From assembly GCA_026646875.1 (NCBI GenBank), contig JAPKHL010000012.1:1-64000 (forward strand): a DNA stretch of 64,000 bases, in the 5' to 3' direction. Numbering within the stretch: position 1 is the stretch's first letter; every line of letters begins with the position of its first letter. Under the pieces are notes generated by a model. The model was not told where the DNA came from. It did no database searches and saw only the letters and a program-made list of their open reading frames with translations. Made by a program: the position numbers and the translations under genes. This document shows, in pieces, positions 1 to 50,072 of the stretch. The stretch comes from Rhodocyclaceae bacterium. GTDB lineage: Bacteria > Pseudomonadota > Gammaproteobacteria > Burkholderiales > Rhodocyclaceae.

Positions 1-1580
1 TCGACGGTTTCCAGCATGTCCTTCTGGAACTCCGGATTATCCCGGTGTCTTTCCGCATTCTTGAGCATCAGCGACAACTGGGCAATGATATTTTTCAGGT
101 CGTGCACCACGAAGGCCGACATGCGGTTGAACGCCTCGAACTTGCGTGCTTCGAGGAGGGCCTCGGTGGCCTGCATCTGGCCGAGGAAGGCGCCGGCCTG
201 ACGCCCCGCCGTCTTGAGCAGGTCATTGACCTCCCAATTGACATCGAGCCGCGTGCGCGCGGTGGCAAGCACGGCGAAACCGATCAGCTCGCTGCCGGTC
301 GCCAGCGGCACGACCAGCCAGGCATTGGGAATCGCCAGCAGCCATTCCGGCAGGGCCAGCCCCTGGTAGCGGCGCGGCAGCGAACGGTACTCCTCCAGGT
401 TGATCACCCAGCCGCTGTCCACCAGGAAATGACAGAGCACACTATCGGCCGGCTCGGTCGCCGTCGATGCCGGCAGGTTCCAGCTGGCGGCCTGGGCGAA
501 GAATCGGCCCGAGGGGTCCTTCAGCCAGAGTGCGCCGGCCGGACTCTCGACCATGTCGGCAAGACCGCGCACCGCATGCGCGCCCATTCCAGAAAAGCCA
601 TCCTGCGAGGAGAGGGTCTGCGTGAAGCGCAGCCACTCCTCGCGATAGTCGTAGCGATAGCTGAAGAAGTGCTTGCCGATCAATACGCGCAGCTTGGCAC
701 GCATCGAACCGGAGACGGCGAGCACACCGAGCGCCAGCAGCGCGGCAAAAAGCAGCGCCAGCTGAAAGGCCCGCCCCCAGTCTCCTCCGAAATAGCGGAC
801 GTAATAACCGGCTGCCGCCATGAACAGCAGATAAACGCCGACCATCAGCAGCGTGGCCGACTGCATGGCGGCGCGCTGCGAGAGCACCAGCCGCGTTTTC
901 CAGTCGCGGCTGCGGATCGTCGACACCGCGACGAGGGGCACCACCAGCGCATGCACGAACCCGCGGATGCTGAAGGCATCGAGATCGAGCTGGTTGAACA
1001 GCAAGGCTTCCGAATACAGATAAAGATCGTAGAGGAAGGCGCCGGCCAGCCCCAGGCAGAGCGGTTTGATGCTCCAGCGCGAATCGCTCGCCGCGGTGCG
1101 GAAAAGCTGCTCGACGAGCACCAGCCCGAACACCGCCATGGCCAGCGAATCGAGCAGCGCAAGACGCTGCAGCGAGGCCCCGAGCGCCGGCTCGAGCAGG
1201 ATTGCCAGCTGCACCGCCACACCCAGCCCGACCAGGGCGACCGCCGCCGCGGTCATGCGCGGCCAGCGGGCGGTCGTCACGGCGCCGTCGGCGGCCGCGT
1301 CGCCATGACCGACACGCAGCAGAACGAGCAGGAAAAAGTACCAGCCACCGAAGCGCAGGACATCGGTCAGCAGGCTGGCAGCGAGGTAGAGCGCCTCGCC
1401 CGACAGCGCGAAGGCCAGGCCAGCCGTCGCCCACAGCTCGCAGGACAGGGCGGCCACGAACAATGCGCGCCGACGCTCACCGCCATTCCGGCCGCTGGCC
1501 AAGTAAAGGGCGAAGGCACCATAGACGACGCCTGCCAGCCCGTAGCTCCAGGCGGTGATGATCGCTATGCCGCTACCCAT
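1..1580 (-). CDS. prsK: PEP-CTERM/XrtA-system sensor histidine kinase PrsK, 3' end outside window
   Basis: This open frame runs off the left edge, so the ORF track misses it. Translation from ATG at 1580 starts MGSGIAIITAW and gives about nine hydrophobic segments in the first ~290 residues. A GAF-like stretch follows, and near residue 490 comes a histidine-kinase H-box (VVHDLKN). The ATP-binding domain lies beyond the window. This order matches PrsK, the membrane kinase that with the sigma-54 activator PrsR controls PEP-CTERM genes in exosortase-A bacteria. It begins about 50 bp downstream of the sugar-transferase gene on the same strand, as in eps/xrtA loci. Partner prsR would be expected just left of the window. 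The family call is confident; kinase activity cannot be judged from the truncated copy. Confidence 0.85.
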   Translation of the reverse strand, partial: MGSGIAIITAWSYGLAGVVYGAFALYLASGRNGGERRRALFVAALSCELWATAGLAFALSGEALYLAASLLTDVLRFGGWYFFLLVLLRVGHGDAAADGAVTTARWPRMTAAAVALVGLGVAVQLAILLEPALGASLQRLALLDSLAMAVFGLVLVEQLFRTAASDSRWSIKPLCLGLAGAFLYDLYLYSEALLFNQLDLDAFSIRGFVHALVVPLVAVSTIRSRDWKTRLVLSQRAAMQSATLLMVGVYLLFMAAAGYYVRYFGGDWGRAFQLALLFAALLALGVLAVSGSMRAKLRVLIGKHFFSYRYDYREEWLRFTQTLSSQDGFSGMGAHAVRGLADMVESPAGALWLKDPSGRFFAQAASWNLPASTATEPADSVLCHFLVDSGWVINLEEYRSLPRRYQGLALPEWLLAIPNAWLVVPLATGSELIGFAVLATARTRLDVNWEVNDLLKTAGRQAGAFLGQMQATEALLEARKFEAFNRMSAFVVHDLKNIIAQLSLMLKNAERHRDNPEFQKDMLETV

Positions 1581-1629
1581 GGGAACCCGGCCGCCCCCGA
1601 CCGGCACGACACAGACAGACGCGCCACGC

Positions 1630-3015
1630 TCACTGCGCCCCCTTTCCGGTCAGCACCACGCCCACTGTTTCGAAAAGCACGACGATGTCGAGAAACAGTG
1701 TGTGATTCTTGACATAGTACAGATCGTACTGAAGCTTCTGCACGGAATCATCCACCGAAGCTCCGTAGTGGTAACGCACCTGGGCCCAGCCGGTAACCCC
1801 CGGCTTGACGCTATGGCGCACGGCGTAGAACGGAATGTCTCGCGTCAGCTGATCGACGAAATAGGGACGTTCGGGGCGCGGGCCGACCAGACTCATGTCA
1901 CCGGTCAGGACGCTGTACAGCTGCGGCAGCTCGTCGATGCGCAGCTTGCGGATGATCCGCCCGACACGCGTCACGCGGTCGTCGTTGGCGGCGGCCCAGC
2001 GCGGCTTGCCGTCGCGCTCGGCGTCGGTGCGCATGCTGCGGAACTTGATCACGTTGAACAGGCGACCGTTGAGCCCCACCCGCTCCTGCCGGTAAAAGAC
2101 CGGAAAACCATCCTCCAGCACGATCAGCAGCGCCGTCACCAGCATCACCGGCATGGCCAGCACCAGCAGGACGGACGCGGCCACGATGTCGAAGAGGCGC
2201 TTCACGGTCGTCCTCGCCCAGCCCTGGCGGAAGCCCTCGCCGAAGATCAGCCAGCCGACACGCAGGGAATCGAGGCGGATCTGTCCGAGCGCCCGTTCGA
2301 AATAGCTGGCGAGATCGAGGACCTTGATGCCGGCAAGCTTGCAGTCGAGCAGCTCGCGCAAGGGCAGGATGCCGCCGCGCCGCTCGCGCACGGCGATGAT
2401 GATTTCATTGACGCGCAGGCTGTGCGCGGTATCCGACAGCGACATCTCGCGCGACAGCACAAGCTGGGCCGGCAGGCAGATCTCGGTATCGGTGGGACTG
2501 GGGTAGAAGCCGACGATCTGGATGTCCGGGTCCGACTTGCGCAGCACGGCCGCCACCGACTCGGCCTCGGTGCCCGCGCCAAAGATCAGGACGCGGTGCA
2601 CCAGCATCGTCCCGGAACGGCTGTTGGCCATGTAGACCCGGTGCGCCAGCGTTCCAAACAGCGCTGCGAGGCCCGAAAGCAGCAGCAGCTCCCGGTTCAC
2701 CTCCGCGATCGACAGGACGTGGAAGACCGCGTAGGCCAGCGGCACCGCGAGGTACAGGGAAAGCACCGCACGGGCACGGACGCGGGCGGCCTGGCGGCTG
2801 CCGCCACCGAGCTGGTAGAGGCCAAGCAGGGCATTGAGGAGAACCATGGTCAGCGCGAAGATCACGGCGTAGAGCACCACCGTCTGAACATCGATCTCGC
2901 CACCGCGTCCGACCCAGAACATGGCCAGGAGCACGCAGACGACCGGGAAGAGAAAATCGAGAGCGACCTGGAAAATCGTTCTCCAATGCAACCAGTGGCT
3001 AAAGACCTTGATCAT
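1630..3015 (-). CDS. TIGR03013-type undecaprenyl-phosphate sugar transferase (XrtA/PEP-CTERM system)
   Basis: The 461-residue protein has several N-terminal membrane helices and a Rossmann-like region (RVLIFGAG, residues 141-148). The bacterial sugar-transferase domain starts at KRLFDIVAAS (about 272), with the usual FRSMR and SLVGPRPE motifs. By family it loads the first sugar phosphate onto undecaprenyl phosphate at the inner membrane to begin exopolysaccharide synthesis. The TIGR03013 subgroup accompanies exosortase A, which fits prsK immediately downstream. The promoter must lie in the AT-rich gap upstream; no convincing sigma-54 site was found there. General polyprenyl glycosylphosphotransferase function is near certain, the subgroup slightly less so. 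Confidence 0.9.
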   Translation of the reverse strand: MIKVFSHWLHWRTIFQVALDFLFPVVCVLLAMFWVGRGGEIDVQTVVLYAVIFALTMVLLNALLGLYQLGGGSRQAARVRARAVLSLYLAVPLAYAVFHVLSIAEVNRELLLLSGLAALFGTLAHRVYMANSRSGTMLVHRVLIFGAGTEAESVAAVLRKSDPDIQIVGFYPSPTDTEICLPAQLVLSREMSLSDTAHSLRVNEIIIAVRERRGGILPLRELLDCKLAGIKVLDLASYFERALGQIRLDSLRVGWLIFGEGFRQGWARTTVKRLFDIVAASVLLVLAMPVMLVTALLIVLEDGFPVFYRQERVGLNGRLFNVIKFRSMRTDAERDGKPRWAAANDDRVTRVGRIIRKLRIDELPQLYSVLTGDMSLVGPRPERPYFVDQLTRDIPFYAVRHSVKPGVTGWAQVRYHYGASVDDSVQKLQYDLYYVKNHTLFLDIVVLFETVGVVLTGKGAQ

Positions 3016-10299: not shown

Positions 10300-10685
10300 C
10301 AGCAGCAACCCGACTTCGGCGTGCAGCAGCGCCCCGTCCCGGCAGGTTTCTCCCCGCCCGCCGCCCGCGCCGCATCGCCTCCGGCCGACAGGCCGAGTTT
10401 CTGCGCCAACTGTGCACGCGACGGATAGAGCCCGGTGCTCGCGACCTGCCCATCGATGACAACGACCGGCAGCCGATCCATGCCGGCTTCCATCTCCTTC
10501 AGCACCGCCGGATTGGCGGCAAAGGCCTGCGGCGCCTGTCCGAGGTTGTGGCGGGAAACGGCAACGCCCTGTGCCTCGACCCATTGCAGGTCTGCCGCGA
10601 ACTGCGCCAGCACCGGATCGACCTCCACTCCGCAAACACCGGTCGAGCAGCACATGGCGGGATCGAACACTTCGAGTTTTCTCAT
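10299..10685 (-). CDS. arsD: Arsenite metallochaperone/repressor ArsD
   Basis: The 128-residue protein carries the ArsD cysteine set: CC plus a nearby C at the N terminus (MCCSTGVCG) and two C-terminal vicinal pairs (GRCCTPKSGCC). ArsD binds As(III) and hands it to ArsA, and can weakly repress ars genes. It sits between acr3 (24 bp upstream, with a clear AAGGAG) and arsA (one-base overlap). It is full length, and the extra cysteine pairs are intact. Confidence 0.95.
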   Translation of the reverse strand: MRKLEVFDPAMCCSTGVCGVEVDPVLAQFAADLQWVEAQGVAVSRHNLGQAPQAFAANPAVLKEMEAGMDRLPVVVIDGQVASTGLYPSRAQLAQKLGLSAGGDAARAAGGEKPAGTGRCCTPKSGCC

Positions 10686-10709
10686 GATTTTTCTCCTTGG
10701 AAATTCATG

Positions 10710-11780
10710 TCAGCGGTTTCCTTCGTACCAGTTCCGGGTGGAATTGACCATGCGCACCAGCCACAGCATCACCGGCACCTCGATCAGCACGCCGACCACG
10801 GTGGCCAGCGCAGCGCCGGAATCGAAACCGTAGAGGACGATGGCCACGGCCACCGCCAGCTCGAAGAAATTCGAGGCGCCGATCATCGTCGATGGCCCGG
10901 CGATGTTGTGCGCCACGCGGAAACGGCGGTTCAGCCAGTAGCCGAGTCCGGCGATGAACAGCCCCTGCAGCAGGATGGGCACGGCAAGCATGGCGATGAT
11001 CAGCGGCTGCGCGGCGATGGCTTCGCCCTGAAAGGCGAAGAGCAGCAGCAGCGTGGCCAGCAGCGCCACCATCGTGAACGGCGCGATGCGCGCCACCGCC
11101 GCCTGGAAGAGCGCCTCGCCGCGCGCCATGAAATGCCGGCGCAGCCCCTGCGCGATGGCCAGCGGAATGACGATGTAAACCACCACCGAGAGCAGCAGCG
11201 TATCCCACGGCACCGGGATGGCCGACACGCCGAGCAGGAAGGCAACGATGGGCGCGAAGGCAAAGACCATCACCAGATCGTTGAGCGCCACCTGCGAAAT
11301 GGTGAAATTGGCATCGCCGCGACACAGATTGCTCCACACGAAGACCATTGCCGTGCACGGCGCGGCGCCAAGCAGGATCAATCCGGCGATGTAGCTGTCG
11401 AGCTGCTCCGCCGGCAGCCAGGGCGCGAAAACGTGGCGGATGAACAGCCAGCCCAGCGCAGCCATGGTGAAGGGCTTCACCGCCCAATTCACGAACAGCG
11501 TGATGCCGATGCTCGCTCCCTGCTTGCGCACCTCGTGCAGCGAAGCGAAATCGATCTTCATCAGCATCGGAACGATCATCACCCAGATCAGCAGCCCCAC
11601 CGGCAGATTGACCTGCGCCACCTCCATCCGCCCCACGGCCTGGAAAAAGGCCGGCGCCAGCTGACCAAGCGCGATTCCCGCACCGATGCAGAGCACCACC
11701 CACAAACTCAGCCAGCGCTCGAAGACGCCGATCGGAGCCCCCACGGCCGCCCGCGCCGCACGCTCGCACTGCACGCTCAT
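10710..11780 (-). CDS. acr3: Arsenite efflux permease, ACR3 family
   Basis: The 356-residue protein has about ten membrane helices and the ACR3 signature regions GAAPCTAMVFVWS (with the essential cysteine) and FNF-like ASNFFELAVAVAI. It exports arsenite across the inner membrane, here probably energised by ArsA. ATG at 11780 overlaps the stop of the upstream ArsR-ArsC gene by four bases. The track starts at 12177 and 12260 are shadows or extensions. The combination of ACR3 with ArsA/ArsD, rather than ArsB, is well known in betaproteobacteria. Confidence 0.95.
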   Translation of the reverse strand: MSVQCERAARAAVGAPIGVFERWLSLWVVLCIGAGIALGQLAPAFFQAVGRMEVAQVNLPVGLLIWVMIVPMLMKIDFASLHEVRKQGASIGITLFVNWAVKPFTMAALGWLFIRHVFAPWLPAEQLDSYIAGLILLGAAPCTAMVFVWSNLCRGDANFTISQVALNDLVMVFAFAPIVAFLLGVSAIPVPWDTLLLSVVVYIVIPLAIAQGLRRHFMARGEALFQAAVARIAPFTMVALLATLLLLFAFQGEAIAAQPLIIAMLAVPILLQGLFIAGLGYWLNRRFRVAHNIAGPSTMIGASNFFELAVAVAIVLYGFDSGAALATVVGVLIEVPVMLWLVRMVNSTRNWYEGNR

Positions 11781-12610
11781 TGCCCGCCCTCCTCCGCATG
11801 GATCCTGCGCGCGGCGGCCTGCACCTCCGCCGCCGGCATGCGCTCCAGCGGCAGCGCGAGAAACGCCGAAATCCGGCGCACCAGCTGCGCGTAGGCCGTC
11901 TCGAACGCCGCGCGGCGGGCCGCCAGCGGCTCGACATGCGCCGGATCGGGAATCGCCCAGTGCGCCGTGGCCGGATGCCCCGGCCACACCGGGCAGGCCT
12001 CGCCCGCCGCGCTGGCGCACACGGTGAAGATGAAATCCATGCGCGGCGCCTCCGGCGTGGCGAACTCCGTCCACGACTTGCTGCGCGCCTCGGGCAACGG
12101 CACTCCGTGCCGCGCCAGCGTTTCCAGCGCCACCGGATTGACCGTGCCGGACGGCTGGCTGCCCGCCGAAAAGGCACGCACGCGCCCCGGCCGCGACTGG
12201 TTGCCGAGATGATTGAACAACGCCTCGCCGAGAATCGAGCGGGCGGAATTGCCGGTGCACAGCACCAGGATGTTGAAGACAGGCAAGGCAGGCATCGAGC
12301 AGTCCTTGGGCAGACAGAGTTCGGGATGACCGTGGCAGCAGTCCTCGGTCAGGAAGGCAAGCAGCGCGTTGATGCCGGCCATGGCCGCCCGGTAGCGCAC
12401 GTAACGCCCCTCCTGCGCCATGCTGACCAGCCCCGCCTGCGCCAGCGTCTTGAGATGGAAGGACAGCGTCGGCGCCGGCAACGCCAGCTGTTCGGCAATC
12501 GCCCCCGCCGTCATCCCCTCGGGCCCATGGCGAACCAGCAGACGGAAAACGGACAGACGGCTCTCCTGAGCCAGCGCGGACAGCGCAGTGACGGCGGCTT
12601 TTGATTCCAT
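11777..12610 (-). CDS. ArsR repressor fused to thioredoxin-coupled arsenate reductase
   Basis: Residues 1-95 form an ArsR-type winged helix (SALAQESRLSVFRLL, LSFHLKTLAQAGLV) with a CC and further cysteines just after it (EDCCHGHPELC) that could sense As(III). From about residue 110 a low-molecular-weight-phosphatase-type arsenate reductase follows, with the catalytic loop VLCTGNSARS. One polypeptide thus both senses arsenite and reduces arsenate. ATG 12610 is preferred; the track start 12646 is a TTG. Upstream there is only a weak GGAA, and the operator sits two bases before the ATG. This is the first gene of the ars operon. Confidence 0.85.
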   Translation of the reverse strand: MESKAAVTALSALAQESRLSVFRLLVRHGPEGMTAGAIAEQLALPAPTLSFHLKTLAQAGLVSMAQEGRYVRYRAAMAGINALLAFLTEDCCHGHPELCLPKDCSMPALPVFNILVLCTGNSARSILGEALFNHLGNQSRPGRVRAFSAGSQPSGTVNPVALETLARHGVPLPEARSKSWTEFATPEAPRMDFIFTVCASAAGEACPVWPGHPATAHWAIPDPAHVEPLAARRAAFETAYAQLVRRISAFLALPLERMPAAEVQAAARRIHAEEGGQ

Positions 12611-12891: not shown

Positions 12892-15800
12892 ATGCAGCCC
12901 GGCGACAAAGTCCGCTTGAAGGCCAACCCGGGCAGGGTTGGCATCCTCGGTAACGAAACCGATGGCCCACCGCATCGATTCCGAGTTCTAGTCACCTTCA
13001 CAGACGGTGAAGAGCAGTTCGTACTCAAGAACTCGCTCGAGAAGGTCGACCGGGCATCGGCCGGCCCTTATGCAATGGTGGCCAGTGGTCGTTACGGCCG
13101 AGTCGAGGATCTCCGTGGTGCGATCACGTATTACCGGCTGAGCGGTCGACTAGCAAACCTCATCTACAGCCTGAACACGACGAACACGCAGTTCCTTGCC
13201 TACCAGTTCAAGCCTGTACTGCAGTTCCTCGACTCGCCGTCGAACGGCATCCTCATAGCGGACGAGGTCGGCCTCGGCAAGACCATCGAGGCCGGCCTGA
13301 TCTGGACGGAGCTCCGCGCCCGTGTCGATGCGAAGCGCCTCTTGGTGATCTGTCCCGCGATGCTTCGCGAAAAGTGGAAGGCCGAACTCTCCGAGCGCTT
13401 CGGGGTGAGCGCGGAGATCGTCGATGCACGCGGCCTGCTCGACCACCTGCAGAGCGCACGAGAACGCCCCCAGCAACAGTTCGCGCTGATCGCCAGCATG
13501 CAGGGTTTGCGCCCGGCCAAGGGCTGGAATGACGATGAGGAGCCCTCCCAGGCAACCACTGCAAAGCTGGCGCGCTTTCTGAACGAGGCGGACCTCGAAG
13601 AGCCCCTGCTCGACATGCTGATCATCGACGAGGCGCACTACCTGCGAAACGACGAAACGGCTACCCATCGTCTGGCCCGGCTGCTTCGTCCAGTCGTGCA
13701 GAGCATGGTGATGCTGTCGGCGACACCGATCCAGTTGCGGAGCGACGATCTTTTCAACCTGCTCAACCTGATCGACGAGGACTCCTTCCCCTTCCCCACC
13801 TCGTTCCAATACTCCCTGCAGGAAAACGCACCGATCGTCGCCTTGCGCGACCGGATCCTGAGTCACGTGGTCACGCCCACGGATTTCGTAGAGACCTTGC
13901 GTGAGGCAGTTGGTGGTCGCATCTTCGGCGACAACGCTCAGCTCGAGCACCTCATCAATCATCCGCCCTCTGCCGAGGACCTTTCCTCGCCGCGCGGACG
14001 CTCAGAAATTGCCGATCAGCTGGACCGAATCAACCCGCTGACCAAGGTCGTCACGCGAACCCTGAAACGCGACGTGCAGGAAATGCGCGTGCAGCGAGAT
14101 CCGGTGACGGTCCGCGTAGAGATGAACCCGATCGAGCGCGAGTTCTACGATCAAGTGACCGAGGCGGTTCGCGAGTTCTGCGCGCGCATCGACATCTCTG
14201 AAGGCTTCATGCTGACGATTCCGCAGCGCCAGTTGTCCAGCTGCGTGGCAGCCGCGTGCAAGGGTTGGCTCGATCGCACGGAAGTCGATGACGAAGAGCT
14301 TGCAAGCGAGGTCTTCGAGCTCTACGGCGATGCCGAGGACAACGAGAAACGCCCGAACCTTGGCGCCCTATTGCGAACACTCGTGGGCATTGCACGACGC
14401 GTTGGCGACCACACGGCACTCGAATCGGTGGACAGCAAGTACGACATGCTGGTCCGCAACCTGAAGCAATACTGGGCTGCTTACCCCGGCAAGAAGATCG
14501 TTCTGTTCTCCTTCTACCGCAACACGCTCCACTACCTCGCACGCCGGCTGGCAGCAGAAGGGATCCAGTCTGCAGTGCTTCACGGCGGGATGGACAAGCA
14601 TGGCGTGCTGCGGCACTTCGAGTCGACCGAAGGCCCCGACATCCTGATTTCTTCAGAGGTCGCTTCCGAGGGCGTGGACCTCCAGTTCTCCAGCCTGCTC
14701 ATCAACTACGACCTGCCCTGGAACCCCGCCCGGATCGAACAGCGCATTGGTCGTATCGACCGGATCGGACAGGAAGCCGAGAAGATCCTGATCTGGAATT
14801 TCATCTACACGCACACGATTGATGAACGGATCTACGACCGACTGCTGGAGCGCCTCGACATTTTCCGCCAGGCGCTCGGCAGCATGGAGGCGATGCTGGG
14901 CACCGAGATCCGCACGCTGAGCTACGAGCTGCTATCGCACAAGCTCACACCGGAGCAGGAGCAGGAACGCATCGACCGCGCCAGTCTTGCCATCGAGCGA
15001 GTGAGCAGGCAGCAGGCGCTGCTGGAAGAGGAAGCCACCCAGCTGATCGCCCATGGCGACTTCATCCAGAACAAGGTACGGGCCGCCAAGGAGTTGGGTC
15101 GCTTCATCCGAGGCGAAGATCTGCTCGCCTACGTGAAGGATTTTCTCGAGCGTGAGTTTCCCGGGACGCGTTTGCTTGCGGACGATGACAACGAGCTCGA
15201 GCATGTCATCGAGATCTCGACCGAGGCCCGCGTCGCTTTCTCCGAGTTTCTCCAGCAACAACGGCTTCAGGGCGCAACGCGCCTCCTTGGTGCCGCACCG
15301 CCAAGGCTCATCTTCGAGAACCGTCATGGGCGGAACCCGTCCGGAAAGGAACGGATCACGCAAGATCATCCGCTCGTGCGCTTCGTGGCGGATGAGTTGA
15401 AGAAGGGTGGAAAGGGGCCGCTCTACAGCCCGGTTGCGGCGGTGGAAATCCTGGGCAACACGGTTGGAAACATCGAGCGCGACATCTACGTCTATGCGAT
15501 CGCACGCTGGACCGTCTCGGGTGCCCGCGACATCGAGCGGCTGGAGTATCTGGTCCAGCGGCTTGCGGACGGTTGGTTGCTCGACGGCGAGCAGGCGGAG
15601 TTTCTCGTGAATGCCGCCGGTCTCCAGGGCCGGGACTGGCTGGGCGCAAGCACAAGCCTGAACCATGCGCACACCGCCGGGGTGCTCGACGACTGCCGTG
15701 CCGAGCTCGAAGAGCGTTTTCGCGCATTTCGTGACGCACAGATCCGCGAAAACCGAGATCGCGTCAGCTTCATGGTGAACACCCTTCGGCATCACCTGGA

Positions 15801-16005
15801 TAACCAGCGCAGGCGCTTCCACGAACGAATCGAGAAGTATCGACTGCACGGTACCGACAAGCAGAGGCGACTGATTCCAGCGGAAGAGGGCCGGCTCAAG
15901 AAGCTCACCCAGCGCATCGAGGCACGGATCGCTGAGTTGCGCCTGAAGGAGTCGATCCAGGCCCACGACAGCATGGTGTCAGGCGGCGTCATCCGAGTGG
16001 TCTGA
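12892..16005 (+). CDS. SNF2/RapA-type helicase-like ATPase, candidate defence protein
   Basis: The 1037-residue protein starts with a small beta-rich domain (MQPGDKVRLKANPGRVG). It has a complete SF2/SNF2 core: motif I DEVGLGKTIEAG (about residue 124), II IIDEAHY (about 244), III MLSATPIQ (about 274) and VI QRIGRIDRIGQ (about 615-625). A long C-terminal region rich in charged helices (about 680-1037) follows. Such proteins translocate on double-stranded DNA or displace bound proteins. The layout is like RapA and the DISARM DrmD helicase, but no methylase or other DISARM gene is nearby. It is 24 bp upstream of an Hsp70/actin-fold gene. GC content is visibly lower than in neighbours, suggesting transfer. 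Confidence 0.85.
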   Translation: MQPGDKVRLKANPGRVGILGNETDGPPHRFRVLVTFTDGEEQFVLKNSLEKVDRASAGPYAMVASGRYGRVEDLRGAITYYRLSGRLANLIYSLNTTNTQFLAYQFKPVLQFLDSPSNGILIADEVGLGKTIEAGLIWTELRARVDAKRLLVICPAMLREKWKAELSERFGVSAEIVDARGLLDHLQSARERPQQQFALIASMQGLRPAKGWNDDEEPSQATTAKLARFLNEADLEEPLLDMLIIDEAHYLRNDETATHRLARLLRPVVQSMVMLSATPIQLRSDDLFNLLNLIDEDSFPFPTSFQYSLQENAPIVALRDRILSHVVTPTDFVETLREAVGGRIFGDNAQLEHLINHPPSAEDLSSPRGRSEIADQLDRINPLTKVVTRTLKRDVQEMRVQRDPVTVRVEMNPIEREFYDQVTEAVREFCARIDISEGFMLTIPQRQLSSCVAAACKGWLDRTEVDDEELASEVFELYGDAEDNEKRPNLGALLRTLVGIARRVGDHTALESVDSKYDMLVRNLKQYWAAYPGKKIVLFSFYRNTLHYLARRLAAEGIQSAVLHGGMDKHGVLRHFESTEGPDILISSEVASEGVDLQFSSLLINYDLPWNPARIEQRIGRIDRIGQEAEKILIWNFIYTHTIDERIYDRLLERLDIFRQALGSMEAMLGTEIRTLSYELLSHKLTPEQEQERIDRASLAIERVSRQQALLEEEATQLIAHGDFIQNKVRAAKELGRFIRGEDLLAYVKDFLEREFPGTRLLADDDNELEHVIEISTEARVAFSEFLQQQRLQGATRLLGAAPPRLIFENRHGRNPSGKERITQDHPLVRFVADELKKGGKGPLYSPVAAVEILGNTVGNIERDIYVYAIARWTVSGARDIERLEYLVQRLADGWLLDGEQAEFLVNAAGLQGRDWLGASTSLNHAHTAGVLDDCRAELEERFRAFRDAQIRENRDRVSFMVNTLRHHLDNQRRRFHERIEKYRLHGTDKQRRLIPAEEGRLKKLTQRIEARIAELRLKESIQAHDSMVSGGVIRVV

Positions 16006-40722: not shown

Positions 40723-42900
40723 ATGAAAAAGAGAGACATCAAGTTCCTCGAGATCCGGCACCTGAACGGGCCGAACATCTGGACCTACCGCCCGGTCCTC
40801 GAAGCCGTCGTCGATATCGGCGATCTCGAGGACGCCCCGTCCAACACCATCCCCGGCTTCGCCGACCGGCTCGCCGCCTGGATCCCGTCGCTGATCGAGC
40901 ACCGCTGCAGCTACGAGGAGCGCGGTGGCTTCCTGCGTCGCCTGCAGGAAGGCACCTGGCCCGCGCACATCCTCGAACACGTCACCCTCGAGCTGCAGAA
41001 CCTTGCCGGCATGCCCGGCGGCTTCGGCAAGGCACGCGAGACGCCGCTGCGCGGGGTCTACAAGGTGATCGTGCGGGCCTGGCACGAGGATGTCACGCGC
41101 GCCGCCCTGCTGGCCGCGCGCGAGCTGGTGCTGGCGGCGATGGACGACCGCCCCTACGACGTCGCGGCGACCGTCGAGCATCTCTCCGACATGGTCGACT
41201 CGCTATGTCTCGGCCCCTCGACCGCCTGCATCGTCGACGCCGCCGACGACCGCGACATCCCGGCGATCCGCCTGCTCAACAAGGGCAATCTAGTCCAGCT
41301 CGGCTACGGCGCGAAGAGCCGCCGCATCTGGACCGCCGAGACCGACCGCACCAGCGCCATCGCCGAGGGCATCTCGCGCGACAAGGATCTGACCAAGACC
41401 CTGCTGGCCGCCTGCGGCGTGCCGGTGCCCGAAGGACGCATGGTCGATAGCCCCGAGGACGCCTGGGAGGCGGCGCAGGACATCGGCCTGCCGGTCGTCG
41501 TCAAACCCTACGACGGCAACCACGGGCGCGGCGTGTTCATCGAGCTGACCCGGCAGGAAGAAGTCGAATCCGCCTACCGGGTGGCGCTGGAGGAAGGCAG
41601 CGGCGTCATCGTCGAACGTTGCATCCCGGGGGCGGAACACCGCCTGCTGGTGGTCGGCGGCAAGCTGGTGGCGGCCAATCGCGGCGACATGGTGTGGGTC
41701 ACCGGCGACGGGCGGCAGACGATCACCGAGCTGATCGCCAGCCAGATCAACGCCGATCCGCGGCGCGGCACCACCGAGGAGCATCCGCTCAACGTGATCC
41801 GCATCGATTCCGCGGCGCGCATGGAAATCGCCCGCCAGGGCTACACCGCCGACGCGGTGCCGGAAGCCGGCAAGGCCGTGCTGATCCAGCGCAACGGCAA
41901 CCACGCCTTCGACGTGACCGACGAGGTGCACCCCTCGGTGGCCGCGGCAGCCTCGCTGGCCGCGCGCATCGTCGGCCTGGACATCGCCGGCATCGACCTC
42001 GTCTGCGAGAACATCGGCCGGCCGCTCGCCGAACAAGGCGGCGCCATCGTCGAGGTGAATGCCGGTCCGAGCCTGCTGATGCACATCAAGCCGGCAGTCG
42101 GCAAGCCGCGTCCGGTCGGGCGGGCCATCGTCGAGCATCTTTTCCCCAACGGCAGCGACGGCCGCATCCCGCTGGTCGGCATCACCGGCAGCTACGGCAA
42201 GACCACCGTCGCCCGCCTGGTCGCCCACCTGCTCACGCTGTCCGGCCGGCACACGGGGCTGGCCTGCAGCGACGGGCTCTTCCTCGACCAGCGACAGGTC
42301 GAGGCCGGCGATCGCGCCACCTGGGGCGCCGCGCACCGCACCCTGAAGAACCGCCAGGTCGACGCCGCGGTCTTCGAGAATGGCAGCGACGTGATCCTCG
42401 GCGAAGGCCTCGCCTACGACCGCTGCCAGGTAGGCATCGTCACCAACGTCGATGCGCAGAAGCATCTCGGCCGTTTCTACATCGAGGATCCGGAGAAAGT
42501 GTTCTCGATCCTGCGCACGCAGGTCGACGTCGTCCTGCCGGGCGGCGCCGCCGTGCTCAACGCGGCCGACCCCGCCTGCGTCGAGATGGCGCCGCTATGC
42601 GACGGCGAGGTCATCTATTTCGCCAGTCACGACAACGAGACTGTCGCCGCGCACCGCGCCGGTGGCGGCCGCGCCGTCTTCGCCTACAACGGCAGCGTGG
42701 TGCTGGCCACCGGTGCCGAACAGCGTGCGCTGCTGCCGCTCGCCGCCGTGCCGCAGGCCGCCGGCCGCGAATCCGGCTCGCTCGATGCCCGGCAGACCGA
42801 GAACGTGCTGGCAGCCATCGCCGCCGCCTGGGCGCTCGGTCTCTCCGATGACCTGATGCGCGCCGGCGTGGCGACCTTCGCGCCGGTGGCACCGGCCTGA
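40723..42900 (+). CDS. Truncated cyanophycin synthetase paralogue (CphA'/CphA2-like)
   Basis: The 725-residue protein has the CphA N-terminal domain, an ATP-grasp domain (PVVVKPYDGNHGRGVF) and a Mur-ligase central domain. The usual P-loop is altered (GITGSYGKTT near residue 488) and the C-terminal Mur-ligase domain is missing. The length is about 130 residues below its full-length neighbour. Cyanobacterial CphA2 has the same truncation and polymerises beta-Asp-Arg dipeptides, so this copy may do that or assist CphA. It is followed by cphA after 89 bp. No frameshift is visible, so the shortening looks stable. Confidence 0.8.
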   Translation: MKKRDIKFLEIRHLNGPNIWTYRPVLEAVVDIGDLEDAPSNTIPGFADRLAAWIPSLIEHRCSYEERGGFLRRLQEGTWPAHILEHVTLELQNLAGMPGGFGKARETPLRGVYKVIVRAWHEDVTRAALLAARELVLAAMDDRPYDVAATVEHLSDMVDSLCLGPSTACIVDAADDRDIPAIRLLNKGNLVQLGYGAKSRRIWTAETDRTSAIAEGISRDKDLTKTLLAACGVPVPEGRMVDSPEDAWEAAQDIGLPVVVKPYDGNHGRGVFIELTRQEEVESAYRVALEEGSGVIVERCIPGAEHRLLVVGGKLVAANRGDMVWVTGDGRQTITELIASQINADPRRGTTEEHPLNVIRIDSAARMEIARQGYTADAVPEAGKAVLIQRNGNHAFDVTDEVHPSVAAAASLAARIVGLDIAGIDLVCENIGRPLAEQGGAIVEVNAGPSLLMHIKPAVGKPRPVGRAIVEHLFPNGSDGRIPLVGITGSYGKTTVARLVAHLLTLSGRHTGLACSDGLFLDQRQVEAGDRATWGAAHRTLKNRQVDAAVFENGSDVILGEGLAYDRCQVGIVTNVDAQKHLGRFYIEDPEKVFSILRTQVDVVLPGGAAVLNAADPACVEMAPLCDGEVIYFASHDNETVAAHRAGGGRAVFAYNGSVVLATGAEQRALLPLAAVPQAAGRESGSLDARQTENVLAAIAAAWALGLSDDLMRAGVATFAPVAPA

Positions 42901-42989
42901 CACCCCTGGAACACCGGCCTCCCCCGCGAGGCCGGACGCTTGGATTGCGCGCACCGCGCACGAGAGAAAGGACACGAGGAAGACCGACC

Positions 42990-45563
42990 ATGGAAGTCAC
43001 CCGCATCCGCGCCCTGCGCGGCCCCAACCTGTGGAGCCGGCACACGGCCATCGAGGCCATCGTCCGCTGTACCCCCGCCGAGTGCGCCATTGCCGGCATC
43101 GAGGGGTTCGAGGCACGCCTGCGCGAACGCTTTCCCGAAATCGCCCTGCTCCAGCCGGCCGGCCACGACGAGGCGGTCAGCATGGCGCACGCGCTGGAAT
43201 TCGCGACGCTCGGCCTGCAGGCGCAGGCCGGCTGTCCGGTCACCTTCAGCCGCACCACGCCGACGATCGACGCGGGCGTTTTCCAGGTGGTTGTCGAATA
43301 CAGCGAGGAAGCCGTCGGACGCCTGGCGCTCGAGCTCGCCGAGGCGCTCTGCCAGGCTGCCGTCGACGACCGGCCCTTCGATCTCGCCGACGCCCTGCAC
43401 CGGTTGCGCGACCTCGACGAGGACATGCGCCTCGGCCCGTCGACCGGCTCCATCGTCTGGGCGGCCATGGCGCGCAACATTCCCTTCCGCCGCCTCACCG
43501 AGGGCAGTCTCGTGCAGTTCGGCTGGGGCAGCAAGCAACGGCGCATCCAGGCCGCGGAAACCGACCTGACCAGCGCCGTGGCCGAATCGATCGCGCAGGA
43601 CAAGGAGCTGACCAAGACGCTGTTGCACGCAGCCGGCGTTGCGGTGCCCTTCGGCCGCCCGGTCAGCGACGCGGCCGACGCCTGGGCCGCCGCCTGCGAG
43701 ATCGGCGGCGCGGTGGTGGTGAAGCCGCAGGACGGCAATCAGGGCAAGGGCATCTCGGTGAATCTGACCACGCGCGAGCAGGTCGAGGCCGCCTACGCGG
43801 CGGCCGCCGAGGTCAGCGACGAGGTGCTGGTCGAGCGCTTCCTGCCCGGCCACGATTACCGCGTGCTGGTGATCGGCGGCAAGGTGGTGGCGGTCGCCCG
43901 GCGCGATCCGCCGCAGGTGATCGGCGACGGCGTGCACACCGTGCGCGAGCTGGTCGACCAGGTGAACAGCGACCCGCGTCGCGGCGTCGGGCACGCGACC
44001 TCACTGACCCGCATCCGCTTCGACGACATCGCCCTGGCCCGGCTGGCGCTGCAGAATCTCACCGCCGATTCCGTTCCCGCCAAGGGACAGCGCGTGCTGC
44101 TGCGCAACAATGCCAACCTGTCCACCGGCGGCACCGCGACCGACGTGACCGACGACGTGCACCCCGAATTCGCCGCGCAGGCGGTGGCGGCGGCACTCAC
44201 CGTCGGTCTCGACATCGCCGGCGTCGACGTGGTCTGCGACAGCGTCCTGCGCCCGCTCGCCGAACAGGGCGGCGGCATCGTCGAGGTGAATGCCGCGCCG
44301 GGCCTGCGGATGCACCTGCAGCCCTCGTACGGCAAGGGGCGCGCGGTCGGCGAGGCGATCGTCGACAACATGTTCCCGCCCGGCGAGAACGGCCGCATCC
44401 CGCTCGTCGCCGTCGCCGGCACCAACGGCAAAACCACCACGGTGCGCCTGATCGCCAGCATCTTCGGCGCCGACGGCAAGCGCGTCGGGATGACCAGCAC
44501 GGACGGTGTTTACATCCAGGGACAGCGTATCGATACCGGCGATTGCAGCGGACCGAAGAGCGCCCGCAACGTGCTGCTCCACCCCGACGTCGACGCGGCG
44601 GTGCTGGAGACCGCGCGCGGCGGCGTGCTGCGCGAGGGCCTCGGCTTCGATCGTTGCGACGTGGCGGTGGTCACGAACATCGGCAAAGGCGACCACCTCG
44701 GCCTCTCCTACATCAGTACGGTCGAGGATCTCGCCGTGGTCAAGCGGGTGATCGTCCAGAACGTGACGCCGGACACCGGCGTCGCGGTACTCAATGCCGC
44801 CGACCCGATGGTCGTCGCCATGGCGCCGTCGTGCCCGGGGCAGGTGATCTTCTTCGCCCGCGATCCGCAGCTGCCGACCATGGCCATGCACCGTGCCCAG
44901 GGCAAGCGCGTGGTCTACCAGGACGGTAGCGAGATCGTCGCCAGCGAAGGCGGTACCGAACACCGCCTGGCACTGTCGGCGATCCCGGTGACCGCACACG
45001 GCAGCATCGGATTCCAGGTCGAGAACGCCATGGCCGCGACCGCTGCCGGCTGGGCGCTGGGCCTGTCCTGGGACACCATCCGGACCGGACTGGCGGCCTT
45101 CGTCAACGATGCCGAATCCGCCCCCGGGCGCTTCAATGTTTTCGATTACCGGGGCGCCACCCTGATCGCCGACTACGGCCACAACCCGGATGCCATCACG
45201 GCGCTGGTGCAGGCTATCGACACCATGCCGGCAACCCGCCGCACGGTGGTGATCAGCGGCGCCGGCGACCGTCGCGACGAGGACATCCGGCAGCAGACCG
45301 AAATCCTCGGCGATGCCTTCGATGCGGTTATCCTGTATCAGGACCAGTGTCAGCGCGGTCGTGCCGACGGCGAAGTGATTGCACTACTGCGGGCCGGCCT
45401 GCAGAATGCCGGACGAACCCGCGCGGTGCAGGAAATCACCGGCGAGTTCCTCGCCATCGACACCGCCCTGCAGACATTGCAACCGGGCGAACTGTGCCTG
45501 ATCCTGATCGACCAGGTGGATGAAGCCCTCGCCCACATCGCCAGGCGGGTGGCCGAAGACTGA
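42990..45563 (+). CDS. cphA: Cyanophycin synthetase CphA
   Basis: ATG 42990 gives 857 residues, the usual CphA length. The N-terminal domain, ATP-grasp domain (VVVKPQDGNQGKGI) and Mur-ligase domain with an intact P-loop (GTNGKTTT, about residue 476) and C-terminal part (DYGHNPDAI) are all present. CphA adds aspartate and arginine to the nitrogen-storage polymer cyanophycin. Upstream is the truncated paralogue. No cyanophycinase (cphB) is in the window. Confidence 0.95.
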   Translation: MEVTRIRALRGPNLWSRHTAIEAIVRCTPAECAIAGIEGFEARLRERFPEIALLQPAGHDEAVSMAHALEFATLGLQAQAGCPVTFSRTTPTIDAGVFQVVVEYSEEAVGRLALELAEALCQAAVDDRPFDLADALHRLRDLDEDMRLGPSTGSIVWAAMARNIPFRRLTEGSLVQFGWGSKQRRIQAAETDLTSAVAESIAQDKELTKTLLHAAGVAVPFGRPVSDAADAWAAACEIGGAVVVKPQDGNQGKGISVNLTTREQVEAAYAAAAEVSDEVLVERFLPGHDYRVLVIGGKVVAVARRDPPQVIGDGVHTVRELVDQVNSDPRRGVGHATSLTRIRFDDIALARLALQNLTADSVPAKGQRVLLRNNANLSTGGTATDVTDDVHPEFAAQAVAAALTVGLDIAGVDVVCDSVLRPLAEQGGGIVEVNAAPGLRMHLQPSYGKGRAVGEAIVDNMFPPGENGRIPLVAVAGTNGKTTTVRLIASIFGADGKRVGMTSTDGVYIQGQRIDTGDCSGPKSARNVLLHPDVDAAVLETARGGVLREGLGFDRCDVAVVTNIGKGDHLGLSYISTVEDLAVVKRVIVQNVTPDTGVAVLNAADPMVVAMAPSCPGQVIFFARDPQLPTMAMHRAQGKRVVYQDGSEIVASEGGTEHRLALSAIPVTAHGSIGFQVENAMAATAAGWALGLSWDTIRTGLAAFVNDAESAPGRFNVFDYRGATLIADYGHNPDAITALVQAIDTMPATRRTVVISGAGDRRDEDIRQQTEILGDAFDAVILYQDQCQRGRADGEVIALLRAGLQNAGRTRAVQEITGEFLAIDTALQTLQPGELCLILIDQVDEALAHIARRVAED

Positions 45564-46750: not shown

Positions 46751-46788
46751 AAAACCGAAACCGGAACTCTGTTTCCGGTTTCGGTTTT
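46751..46788. terminator. Bidirectional rho-independent terminator
   Basis: AAAACCGAAACCGGAA and TTCCGGTTTCGGTTTT form a perfect 16-bp stem with a six-base loop, flanked by A and U runs. It separates the convergent nitroreductase and PEP-CTERM genes. Confidence 0.9.
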
Positions 46789-46865: not shown

Positions 46866-47651
46866 TCAGTCCTTGCGGCGACGCAGTCCGGCAAGACCGA
46901 TCAGGCTGAGGCCGACCAGCGCCAGCGAGCCCGGCTCCGGAACCTGCAGGCGGAACTGACCGTTGTTGGACAGATGCAGATCGGTGGTGCCGTTCGGAAC
47001 GACCGGACCGACCTGATCGGGGTCGAATGCGCTGTTGTACAGACCGATCAGCGCCGGAGCGACGGCATTGGGCAGCGGAATCACGTTGGTCGTGCCGAAG
47101 CCCATCACCACGCCGCCGGGCGACGAAACCACGCCGGCCAGGTCGTTCATCGCGGAGTCGAAGAAATAGCCCGAGCTCATCGCCGTGGCCTGGAAGATGA
47201 ACGACACCGCGCCATTCGGAAGGACGGTGCCCGCCGCCAGGTTGGCGCTGCCGGCCAGCAGATCGAAGGTGGCCACGGGAGTCACGCCGGAGCTCACCAC
47301 CAGGGTTCCGCTCGTGAAGGTCAGCGTGCCACCGACCGAGCCGGTGCCCGAGCCGGTGAAGGCCGCGGTCAGCTGCGGGCTGATCGGCGTGCCGATGGGT
47401 ACCGGGCCGTCGGCGGTCGGCGTCGAGAACAGGCCGGACTCGTTGAAATTGAACGTCGTCAGGGAAGTGAAGGTGTTATGGACGTAGGAAACGCCGATCA
47501 GATCCAGGTAGTCCTGCACCAGGATCGGCGCGTTACCGCCGGCACCGTCGCTGTCGAGGTACCAGTTGCTCAACGCTGCGTTGGCCGTGCCCGCTGCACC
47601 CAAGGCCGAGACCATCGCGATCGTCGCCAGATACTTCTTGATTGATTTCAT
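46866..47651 (-). CDS. PEP-CTERM exported protein, PepA-like (flocculation-associated)
   Basis: The 261-residue protein has a signal peptide (MVSALGAAGTANA). It ends in a textbook PEP-CTERM tripartite signal: VPEPGS, a hydrophobic helix and RRRKD. The N-terminal part (NWYLDSDGAGG, YLDLIGVSYVHNTF) resembles PepA proteins linked to floc formation in Zoogloea. Exosortase A would cut and process it for the outer surface. GGAGG lies seven bases before ATG 47651. A sigma-54 promoter upstream ties it to PrsK/PrsR, whose kinase gene opens this window. The PepA subfamily is from memory; the sorting signal is certain. Confidence 0.85.
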   Translation of the reverse strand: MKSIKKYLATIAMVSALGAAGTANAALSNWYLDSDGAGGNAPILVQDYLDLIGVSYVHNTFTSLTTFNFNESGLFSTPTADGPVPIGTPISPQLTAAFTGSGTGSVGGTLTFTSGTLVVSSGVTPVATFDLLAGSANLAAGTVLPNGAVSFIFQATAMSSGYFFDSAMNDLAGVVSSPGGVVMGFGTTNVIPLPNAVAPALIGLYNSAFDPDQVGPVVPNGTTDLHLSNNGQFRLQVPEPGSLALVGLSLIGLAGLRRRKD

Positions 47652-47699
47652 GATGTAGCCTCCAAAGTCATCAAGGCGGTCTCGCCTCGGTCACCTTTC

Positions 47700-47715
47700 A
47701 GCAAGCGCCGTGCCA
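47700..47715 (-). promoter_or_regulatory. Sigma-54 promoter of the PEP-CTERM gene
   Basis: TGGCACGGCGCTTGCT on the minus strand matches the -24/-12 consensus TGGCACG-N4-TTGCW completely. The transcription start would be near 47689, giving a leader of about 38 bases. TGTCGACA (47811-47818) and TTGTCG/CGACAA copies upstream may bind the activator PrsR. Confidence 0.85.
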
Positions 47716-47844
47716 CCTCGACAACACCAATTGCAACACCATGATTTAAATGAATAAAACAGAAATTGTCGGGATTTTTTCGTGAACCGTCCGCCAGCCA
47801 CTGTAAATAATGTCGACAGGCCCGGCGACGGTCACTGCCCCCGC

Positions 47845-49278
47845 TCAGAAGCTGTAGCGCACCTCCGAATACACCCGGTCACGCCCGTCGTAGCGACCGA
47901 AGAGGCCGCTCGGCGGCCCCCGGAAGAGATCGGCGCCCACCGCCAGGCGCCAGTTCCGCTCGAACGTCCAGGTGACACGGGGGCGGAACAGCCAGTCGGT
48001 GCGGTTGATGCTCGAGATCCACAGCGCCTGCGCTTCCACCCGGTCGCCCAGCTTGCGGTTGAGGAGCAGGCTGTAGCCGCTCTCATGCCGCGCGGGAACG
48101 ATGTCGGCATCGTGTTCGTGGAAATCGCGCTGGAAAACCTGCACGTTGAAGCGGGTATCCGCCGGCAGGGAAAAATCGAGGCCGATCGCCCAGTCGAGGA
48201 TGTTCTGCGGCACCACCCCGTCGGCATCGCTGGCGCGCAGCACGTTGAAGCTGCGTCCGCGGGTGTAGACCACCTCGCTCTTCAGGACCACCGATCCGAA
48301 ATCCTTGGCCAGCGTCCCGCCGTACTGGGTGATGCGGTCATGCCTGGCCTCGTAGGCAATGGTGGCCGGGCCGACGATCTCGCGGTAGAAGGTGGGCGCC
48401 ACGTCCATGCTGCGATAGACGAAGGCGGAATAGTCCCAGCCGTTGCTGAGATTGGAGAGACGCAGGCCATAGTTGCTGTTCGCCAGCGAGCGCGACGGAC
48501 GCACCTCGCTGCGATAAAGCGTGGTGACCCCCGGCACCGGTGGCAGTGCCGGATAGAATTCGGCGCCCGGCTTGCCGATCTCGTCGTAGCTGGCCACGGG
48601 AATCCAGAGCAGTTCGGCATGGAAGTCGTCGCGGAAGTACTCGGCGCGCAACGCCCACTGCGGGATACGCAGCGCCTCGAATTCGGGCAGGATGAACTCG
48701 CGCATGTCGCGCGCGGAAACGACATCGGCGAAGAACAGGCCGACCATTTCACCCCACACCACATGCTGGCGTCCGAGCCGGAAATCCCAGGCACCGGCCC
48801 CGATGTCGAGGTAATTCTCGCGCAGGGTCAGGTTTGCCCGCTGATCGCGCGCGACCTCGTCCGGGTAGGTGTGGTAAAGGCTATGGACGGCATCGTAGTC
48901 GGCGCGCGCGCCCAGTTTCCACTTGATTCCGTTGCCCAGCGCGCCCTGCGCGGAAAGATCGGCGCGTGCGCGCATCTTCGACCAGTGCACCGGCGATTCG
49001 GTGGTGCGGGCCAGCTCGAGCTGCAGATAGCCCTTGAAACCGCCGGCGCGCGCCGCCGGCGCGGCCGGCGCCGCTGAAGGCACGGATGGGGAACCCGCCT
49101 CCGGCAGATCGTCGCCGAACAGCGCATCCCGGCTGGACGGTGCCGCATCGCCGGCGGCAAGCAGCAGTGGCGCAGCGCCGCGCAGGGCGGCGCTGCCGCT
49201 CGGTTGGGCAAGGACGGGGGAAGCGCCGCCAGCCAGGGCGAGCAGACAGGCCAGGGCAGGCAGGGTCGGCGATTTCAT
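47845..49278 (-). CDS. DUF1302-type outer-membrane protein
   Basis: The 477-residue protein has a signal peptide (ALACLLALAGGASPVLAQ). A long series of beta-strands ends in the C-terminal aromatic residue of outer-membrane barrels (SEVRYSF). Motifs such as DFRLGRQHVVWGEMVGLFFADV fit DUF1302. It lies just downstream of an ABC ATPase gene and opposite a LolA-like gene. Such sets (DUF1302, lipoprotein-sorting-like protein, ABC transporter) are common in Proteobacteria, but the transported lipid is unknown. ATG 49278 is preferred over 49299. Confidence 0.75.
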   Translation of the reverse strand: MKSPTLPALACLLALAGGASPVLAQPSGSAALRGAAPLLLAAGDAAPSSRDALFGDDLPEAGSPSVPSAAPAAPAARAGGFKGYLQLELARTTESPVHWSKMRARADLSAQGALGNGIKWKLGARADYDAVHSLYHTYPDEVARDQRANLTLRENYLDIGAGAWDFRLGRQHVVWGEMVGLFFADVVSARDMREFILPEFEALRIPQWALRAEYFRDDFHAELLWIPVASYDEIGKPGAEFYPALPPVPGVTTLYRSEVRPSRSLANSNYGLRLSNLSNGWDYSAFVYRSMDVAPTFYREIVGPATIAYEARHDRITQYGGTLAKDFGSVVLKSEVVYTRGRSFNVLRASDADGVVPQNILDWAIGLDFSLPADTRFNVQVFQRDFHEHDADIVPARHESGYSLLLNRKLGDRVEAQALWISSINRTDWLFRPRVTWTFERNWRLAVGADLFRGPPSGLFGRYDGRDRVYSEVRYSF

Positions 49279-49316
49279 GAAAGTTCCAGTCAGTGGCATT
49301 GCAGAATTCTCGCTTG

Positions 49317-50072
49317 TCAGGCGGCACCCGCCGCCGGCTCGCTGCGCGCCGGACGGCGCTGCCGTGCGAGCGACCATTTGTCCTCGGCGCGGACGCCGAG
49401 AACGGAAATCTCGCCGTCGTCGACGCGGACCAGCCGGTCCGCCTTGGCGATCACGCGCTTGTCGTGGGTGGAGAAGATGAAGGTGGTGTTGAAGGCGCGG
49501 TTGATCTGCTTCATCAGGTTGAGGATCTCCTCGCCGGTCTTGTGGTCGAGGTTGGCCGTCGGTTCGTCGGCGAGGACGATGGCCGGCCGGATGGCCAGCG
49601 CACGGGCGATGGCGACGCGCTGGCGCTGGCCGCCGCTGAGCTGGTTCGGCCGGTGCCCGGCGTAGCGGGTGAGCCCGACGATATCGAGAAAATAGGCCAC
49701 CCGCTTGCGGCGCTCCTCGCGCGAGACATCCTTGCGCTGCAGCAGGGGATACTCGACGTTCTCCGCCGCCGAGAGGACGGGCAGGAGGTTGAAGGTCTGG
49801 AAGATGAAGCCGATGGTACGGGCGCGCAGATCGGCCAGCTGGTCGGGGGTGCGGCCGCTGACATCCTCCTCGTTGATGTAGATCCTGCCGCGGGTGGGGG
49901 TGTCGATGCAGCCGATCAGGTTCAGCAGGGTCGTCTTGCCGCTGCCGGACGGGCCGGCAATGGCGAGGAAGACGCCCGGCTCGAATGACAGGGTGATGTC
50001 CTTGAGCGCTTGGACTTTCTGGTCACCGAGCAGATAATCCTTGAAAACGTGTTCGATCCGGACGACGCTCAT
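49317..50072 (-). CDS. MacB/LolD-type ABC ATPase without adjacent permease
   Basis: The 251-residue protein has Walker A (GPSGSGKTT), signature (LSGGQRQR) and Walker B (VLADEPTANLD) and the MacB/LolD Q-loop region. A basic C-terminal tail is extra (RQRRPARSEP). The permease that should accompany it is absent from this window, unlike the second MacB-like operon near 20 kb. The DUF1302 gene follows it after 38 bp. Confidence 0.85.
   Translation of the reverse strand: MSVVRIEHVFKDYLLGDQKVQALKDITLSFEPGVFLAIAGPSGSGKTTLLNLIGCIDTPTRGRIYINEEDVSGRTPDQLADLRARTIGFIFQTFNLLPVLSAAENVEYPLLQRKDVSREERRKRVAYFLDIVGLTRYAGHRPNQLSGGQRQRVAIARALAIRPAIVLADEPTANLDHKTGEEILNLMKQINRAFNTTFIFSTHDKRVIAKADRLVRVDDGEISVLGVRAEDKWSLARQRRPARSEPAAGAA

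Follow-up and report, generated by a model that had tools for sequence, protein, structure and literature searches.

A 193-nt intergenic region of a Rhodocyclaceae bacterium (47652-47844, Table 1) is very probably, as judged from its sequence elements, a PrsK/PrsR-controlled and sigma-54-dependent promoter, serving a single-gene operon for a PepA-like PEP-CTERM protein. The window analyzed is a stretch of 64,000 nt (assembly GCA_026646875.1, contig JAPKHL010000012.1, positions 1-64,000, forward strand), and corresponds to contig C24 in searches of the whole genome (3.11 Mb in total, from a draft assembly 86.6% complete). Read on the minus strand towards the gene, the region features the 17-nt element TGTCGACATTATTTACA, a spacer of 86 nt, the -24/-12 box TGGCACGGCGCTTGCT and, after 48 nt, the ATG. 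Motif 1 and the sigma-54 box support the link, drawn in an earlier note on this DNA, between this remote PEP-CTERM gene and the PrsK/PrsR exosortase regulon. Proteins of this type help floc- and biofilm-forming bacteria to retain their matrix.

The promoter arrangement is already known, having been predicted in 2006 (PMC1569441). The quantisation of the spacer and the IHF-like site found within it appear to be new, as far as the searched literature shows.

Table 1. Position of the features discussed in the text
Feature	Position	Strand	Remarks
PrsK histidine kinase, profile positions 1-517 of 679	3..1607	-	TIGR02916, 639 bits; cut by contig start
EpsB2, XrtA/PEP-CTERM-associated glycosyltransferase	1630..3015	-	TIGR03013
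Intrinsic terminator after pepA-like gene	46751..46788	-	16-pair stem, T tail
PEP-CTERM protein gene, PepA-like	46866..47651	-	261 aa, signal peptide, C-terminal VPEPGSLALVGLSLIGLAGLRRRKD
Intergenic region upstream of pepA-like gene	47652-47844		193 nt
Shine-Dalgarno sequence GGAGG ahead of ATG	47659..47663	-	
Sigma-54 -24/-12 box TGGCACGGCGCTTGCT (Haft motif 2)	47700..47715	-	48 nt before ATG
Candidate IHF site AATCATGGTGTTG	47734..47746	-	one mismatch to WATCARNNNNTTR; 31 nt before sigma-54 box
PEP-CTERM box (Haft motif 1), candidate PrsR site TGTCGACATTATTTACA	47802..47818	-	86-nt spacer to sigma-54 box
DUF1302 protein gene, upstream neighbour	47845..49377	-	its end limits the intergenic region

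Elements of the promoter

The protein encoded downstream ends with a PEP-CTERM motif (PF07589, 30.2 bits; TIGR02595 above cut-off). It is referred to as PepA-like, and is not classed as PepA, because its score against the NF033554 floc_PepA model (76.5 bits) is under the curated cut-off of 80. The strong terminator closing the gene denotes a single-gene operon.

The sequence TGGCACG-N4-TTGCT has a single occurrence (minus strand) in the window, against 0.05 expected by chance, and TGGCACGGCGCTTGCT meets the -24 GG / -12 GC requirement of Haft motif 2; what had been called a near-perfect sigma-54 promoter is a perfect box. In Proteobacteria, Haft et al. found PEP-CTERM genes to be preceded by a motif 1 of 17 nt with TTTACA at its end, then by a spacer averaging 62.8 nt (SD 10.6, range 32-92) and a 17-nt sigma-54 motif 2, and proposed PrsR as the protein binding motif 1 (PMC1569441). 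TGTCGACATTATTTACA, 17 nt long and with TTTACA at its 3' end, fits the description of motif 1 given in the text of that paper, and agrees with the consensus of 160 sites. The distances of 86 nt and 48 nt fall within the ranges given there for the spacer and for the interval from motif 2 to the start codon (23-221).

An activator site had been placed about 126 bases from the predicted start, a distance that is roughly right; among the sequences suggested as possible PrsR sites, the one that stands is the 17-nt TGTCGACATTATTTACA, the palindrome TGTCGACA and the TTGTCG/CGACAA copies falling away. TGTCGACA (47811-47818) is the left half only of the activator element, and occurs twice in the window versus 0.82 times expected; alone it is unremarkable in 64 kb, the informative unit being the longer TGTCGACATTATTTACA. 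Other PEP-CTERM promoters read TGTCGGCA, TGTCGGAT, TGTCGACT and CGTTGGCC in that octamer, the sequence common to the PEP-CTERM promoters of this genome being TGTCG-N6-TTTACA. TGTCGACA is absent as a shared element from the other promoters, and is therefore ruled out as a palindromic operator acting on its own. Related species contribute sites that are only partly independent, and 155 of the 160 spacers were retained after removal of similar ones; TGTCG is not enriched in these (19 occurrences vs. 14.2 in shuffled sequences), and hence the TTGTCG at 47766-47771 and the CGACAA at 47719-47724 are not supported as activator half-sites. A second, inverted copy of motif 1 (TGTCGGGATTTTTTCGT, 47767-47783) was also discarded, as it carries 3 mismatches, a level of similarity met at 235 places in the genome (171 in the control).

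Motif 1 in the same genome

The genome-wide search proposed in the earlier note, for the element plus a -24/-12 box before PEP-CTERM genes, was positive for motif 1, not for TGTCGACA. In the 3.11 Mb, the pattern TGTCGNNNTTNTTTACA is matched exactly at four places, one intragenic and three ahead of PEP-CTERM genes, in the window and on contigs C27 and C38. PEP-CTERM genes on C46 and C89 are preceded by motif 1 with 1 and 2 mismatches, respectively, so that each of the five PEP-CTERM genes whose upstream region is intact is preceded by motif 1 and a sigma-54 box. Spacers measure 86, 65, 108, 64 and 62 (C24, C27, C38, C46 and C89, in this order), and the start codon is located 26-48 nt past the sigma-54 box in all five. 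A combined pattern with a gap of 50-80 misses the site in the window, whose gap is 86. A sixth PEP-CTERM gene (C53) lies near a contig start, its upstream region being apparently missing.

The intragenic match (C49:20929-20945; L019:1501-1517) resides inside a sensor-kinase coding region and features no IHF match; it was rejected as a member of the regulon, and is probably due to chance. A sigma-54-like box is found 108 nt downstream of it, an allowed phase.

Distribution in other genomes

The exact motif 1 plus sigma-54 pattern was detected in 44 of 300 genomes of the order, at 73 sites, and a reversed control gave 2 matches. A PrsR above cut-off is encoded by 40 of the 44 genomes with the pattern, versus 31 of the 256 without it (Fisher p 1e-25). 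Recurrence before PEP-CTERM genes, together with this co-occurrence, assigns the promoter to the known regulon. PepA is rare, being found in 4 other genomes of the 300. The same promoter arrangement was observed for 4 of 4 more distant PepA homologues, with gaps of 63, 64, 64 and 73 (the 63 counted by hand).

Spacer length and helical phasing

Spacers between motif 1 and motif 2 are quantised, clustering at about 63, 74, 85, 96 and 107 bp. The 73 spacers of the 300-genome set fall into groups of 58-65, 73-76 and 81-88, with peaks at 63, 73 and 84-86, none measuring 66-72 or 77-80. When longer gaps were also admitted in the 71 PrsR genomes, most of the additional spacers measured 95-97 or 105-108; the exceptions were a pair of nearly identical sites with a gap of 100 and a single site with 118. 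In a separate scan, run on all species genomes and limited to gaps of 66-96, at least 121 sites were detected; among the matches listed, 96 of 121 belong to the bands 72-75, 83-86 and 94-96, which make up 35% of the range (p 8e-23). In the global set the resultant, among the matches listed, is 0.655 at 10.75 bp, versus a null maximum of 0.28. The spacer in the window belongs to the third group, and is long relative to the commonest class (63).

Quantised spacers imply that motif 1 and motif 2 lie on one face of the helix, and suggest a need for PrsR and RNA polymerase to be positioned on the same side of the DNA. For the spacer, Haft et al. gave only mean and range, helical quantisation and an IHF-like site being unmentioned (PMC1569441).

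A candidate IHF site between the boxes

The element AATCATGGTGTTG, preceded on its 5' side by an A/T-rich tract, is placed between the activator site and the promoter, and its start at -31 is the modal forward position for its spacing class. The sequence YAANNNNYTGATW was spotted in the first spacers, and then tested on the remainder. Allowing one mismatch at most, the IHF consensus WATCAR-N4-TTR is found in 97 of 155 non-redundant spacers, versus 32 in shuffles; 200 scrambled consensuses gave an average of 32 and a maximum of 61. Relative to the sigma-54 box, matches lie at about -20 when the gap is 63 or 74, at -31 when it is 85, and at about -42 in longer gaps, of which there are few examples. 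A match in three phased position bands, which were chosen after seeing the positions, is present in 85 of 155 spacers versus 8 in shuffles. In the global set alone, among the matches listed, slots are filled in 24 of 54 and 19 of 39 cases versus 0.3 and 0.6 in shuffles. Matches occur in either orientation about one point, and the aligned sites are flanked 5' by additional A/T, a feature shared with known IHF sites. Within this genome a good site is found, among the four other PEP-CTERM promoters, in C38 only (gap 108), where a perfect TATCAATCGTTTG with 0 mismatches is located at -42; the others have a site with 2 mismatches or no site at all. A literature search, with most subscription journals outside its reach, found no paper naming both PEP-CTERM and IHF.

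On balance these sequence patterns favour IHF as part of the promoter model. The phased signal might instead come from an intrinsic bend in A/T-rich DNA or from a different nucleoid protein (HU, Fis), a possible but unlikely reading: spacers are indeed A/T-rich (GC 0.38 vs. 0.44-0.51 in the flanks), and helical phasing is present also where an IHF match is missing (R 0.56, n 44), but the excess over scrambled consensuses, the occurrence of matches in both orientations about one point with A/T on the 5' side, and the presence of an IHF-alpha gene (contig C77) argue for IHF.

Regulators encoded in the genome

PrsK had been reported at the edge of the window, and this is correct (Table 1). The remainder of the protein is encoded on contig C85 (L003), where the genes for PrsR and PrsT come next; the exosortase gene is on contig C99. 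A contig break falls within prsK, so that the epsB2-prsK-prsR-prsT cluster is divided between the start of C24 and the end of C85.

In the sole rpoN gene found (C37:2267-3623; L244:1140-2544), an exact 22-bp tandem duplication disrupts the frame around codon 60, after sigma-54 region I and before the remainder of the protein. An intact promoter could thus be silent in this organism. This is improbable: exact short duplications are a frequent artefact of draft assemblies, a second rpoN may be missing from an assembly 86.6% complete, and the persistence of five intact sigma-54/PEP-CTERM promoters and of an intact PrsR argues for selection keeping the system. An assembly error seems likeliest, rather than a real lesion.

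Slightly less probable still is that the sigma-54-dependent promoter is driven by an enhancer-binding protein other than PrsR. About a dozen other NtrC-type regulators match the PrsR model below cut-off, but only PrsR passes it (742 vs. 502.6 bits), motif 1 is specific to PEP-CTERM genes in this genome, and the element tracks PrsR across the 300 genomes. Chance resemblance, with pepA transcribed from an ordinary sigma-70 promoter, is highly implausible: single short matches do occur, as the counts for motif 1 with up to 3 mismatches indicate, but an exact motif, an exact sigma-54 box and an allowed spacing are found together, the arrangement is conserved in homologues, and no sigma-70-like site in the pepA direction was found in the intergenic region searched.

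Known systems and proposed mechanism

As in the regions described by Haft et al., motif 1, a spacer within range, motif 2 and a single-gene PEP-CTERM operon are found in a genome encoding PrsR, PrsK and PrsT, though the spacer exceeds their mean. The pepA gene of Aquincola tertiaricarbonis RN12, shown in 2023 to depend on RpoN via RpoN1 (PMC9850573), has a mapped start, TGGCAC/CTGCTT boxes and a predicted upstream enhancer (PMC9850573). The gene in the window likewise is a PEP-CTERM gene with a sigma-54 box and a predicted upstream activator site; yet Aquincola pepA adjoins prsT, whereas the pepA-like gene is about 45 kb from prsK, and its product falls just below the PepA cut-off. For the mode of activation by PrsR, 'more experiments are needed' (PMC9850573).

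Sigma-54 promoters assisted by IHF, for instance those of nifH and glnH, feature an activator site, a -24/-12 box and an IHF site in between, and depend on the face of the helix. The region in the window has candidates for the activator and IHF sites and a -24/-12 box in the same order. PEP-CTERM promoters differ in the shorter distance from activator site to promoter, and in spacings one turn apart.

In the proposed mechanism, RNA polymerase carrying RpoN would sit closed on TGGCACGGCGCTTGCT. PrsK, on a presumed signal, would phosphorylate PrsR, which would then bind TGTCGACATTATTTACA, 86 bp upstream. Bending of the DNA by IHF at about 47734-47746 would let PrsR, some eight turns away and on the same face of the helix, contact sigma-54 and open the promoter by its ATPase. 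PepA may then be exported and sorted by the exosortase into the matrix.

It is reasonably likely that, across Proteobacteria, PEP-CTERM promoters under PrsR control are built as a helically quantised module with three parts, PrsR box, IHF site and sigma-54 box, and that whole turns have been gained or removed on one or the other side of the bend made by IHF. Distances are 43, 54 or 64 from box to IHF site, and 20, 31 or 42 from IHF site to promoter, the 86-bp spacer in the window being a third-rung example. If the module is real, IHF would be a general partner in the control of the exosortase matrix. The phasing rule and the IHF site may provide a sharper filter for the whole regulon, non-PEP-CTERM targets included.

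PrsR-type boxes are also found before genes of other types, which are candidate extra members of the regulon. These encode proteins with a PilZ domain (PF07238 in L144), or else small exported proteins whose N-terminus is of the RRxLLK type (loci L144, L164, L227, L241; L095, L196, L212, L216, L221, L228).

Elsewhere in the window, arsenite export genes (ArsA and ACR3) adjoin each other on the minus strand at 8545-12260, a DISARM DrmD-like helicase is encoded at 12892-16005 (422 bits with NF038317, whose cut-off of 610 it does not reach), and two adjacent cyanophycin-synthetase-like genes reside at 40723-45563, the first identified by NF010623 (1083 bits), the second recognised on visual inspection of its translation.
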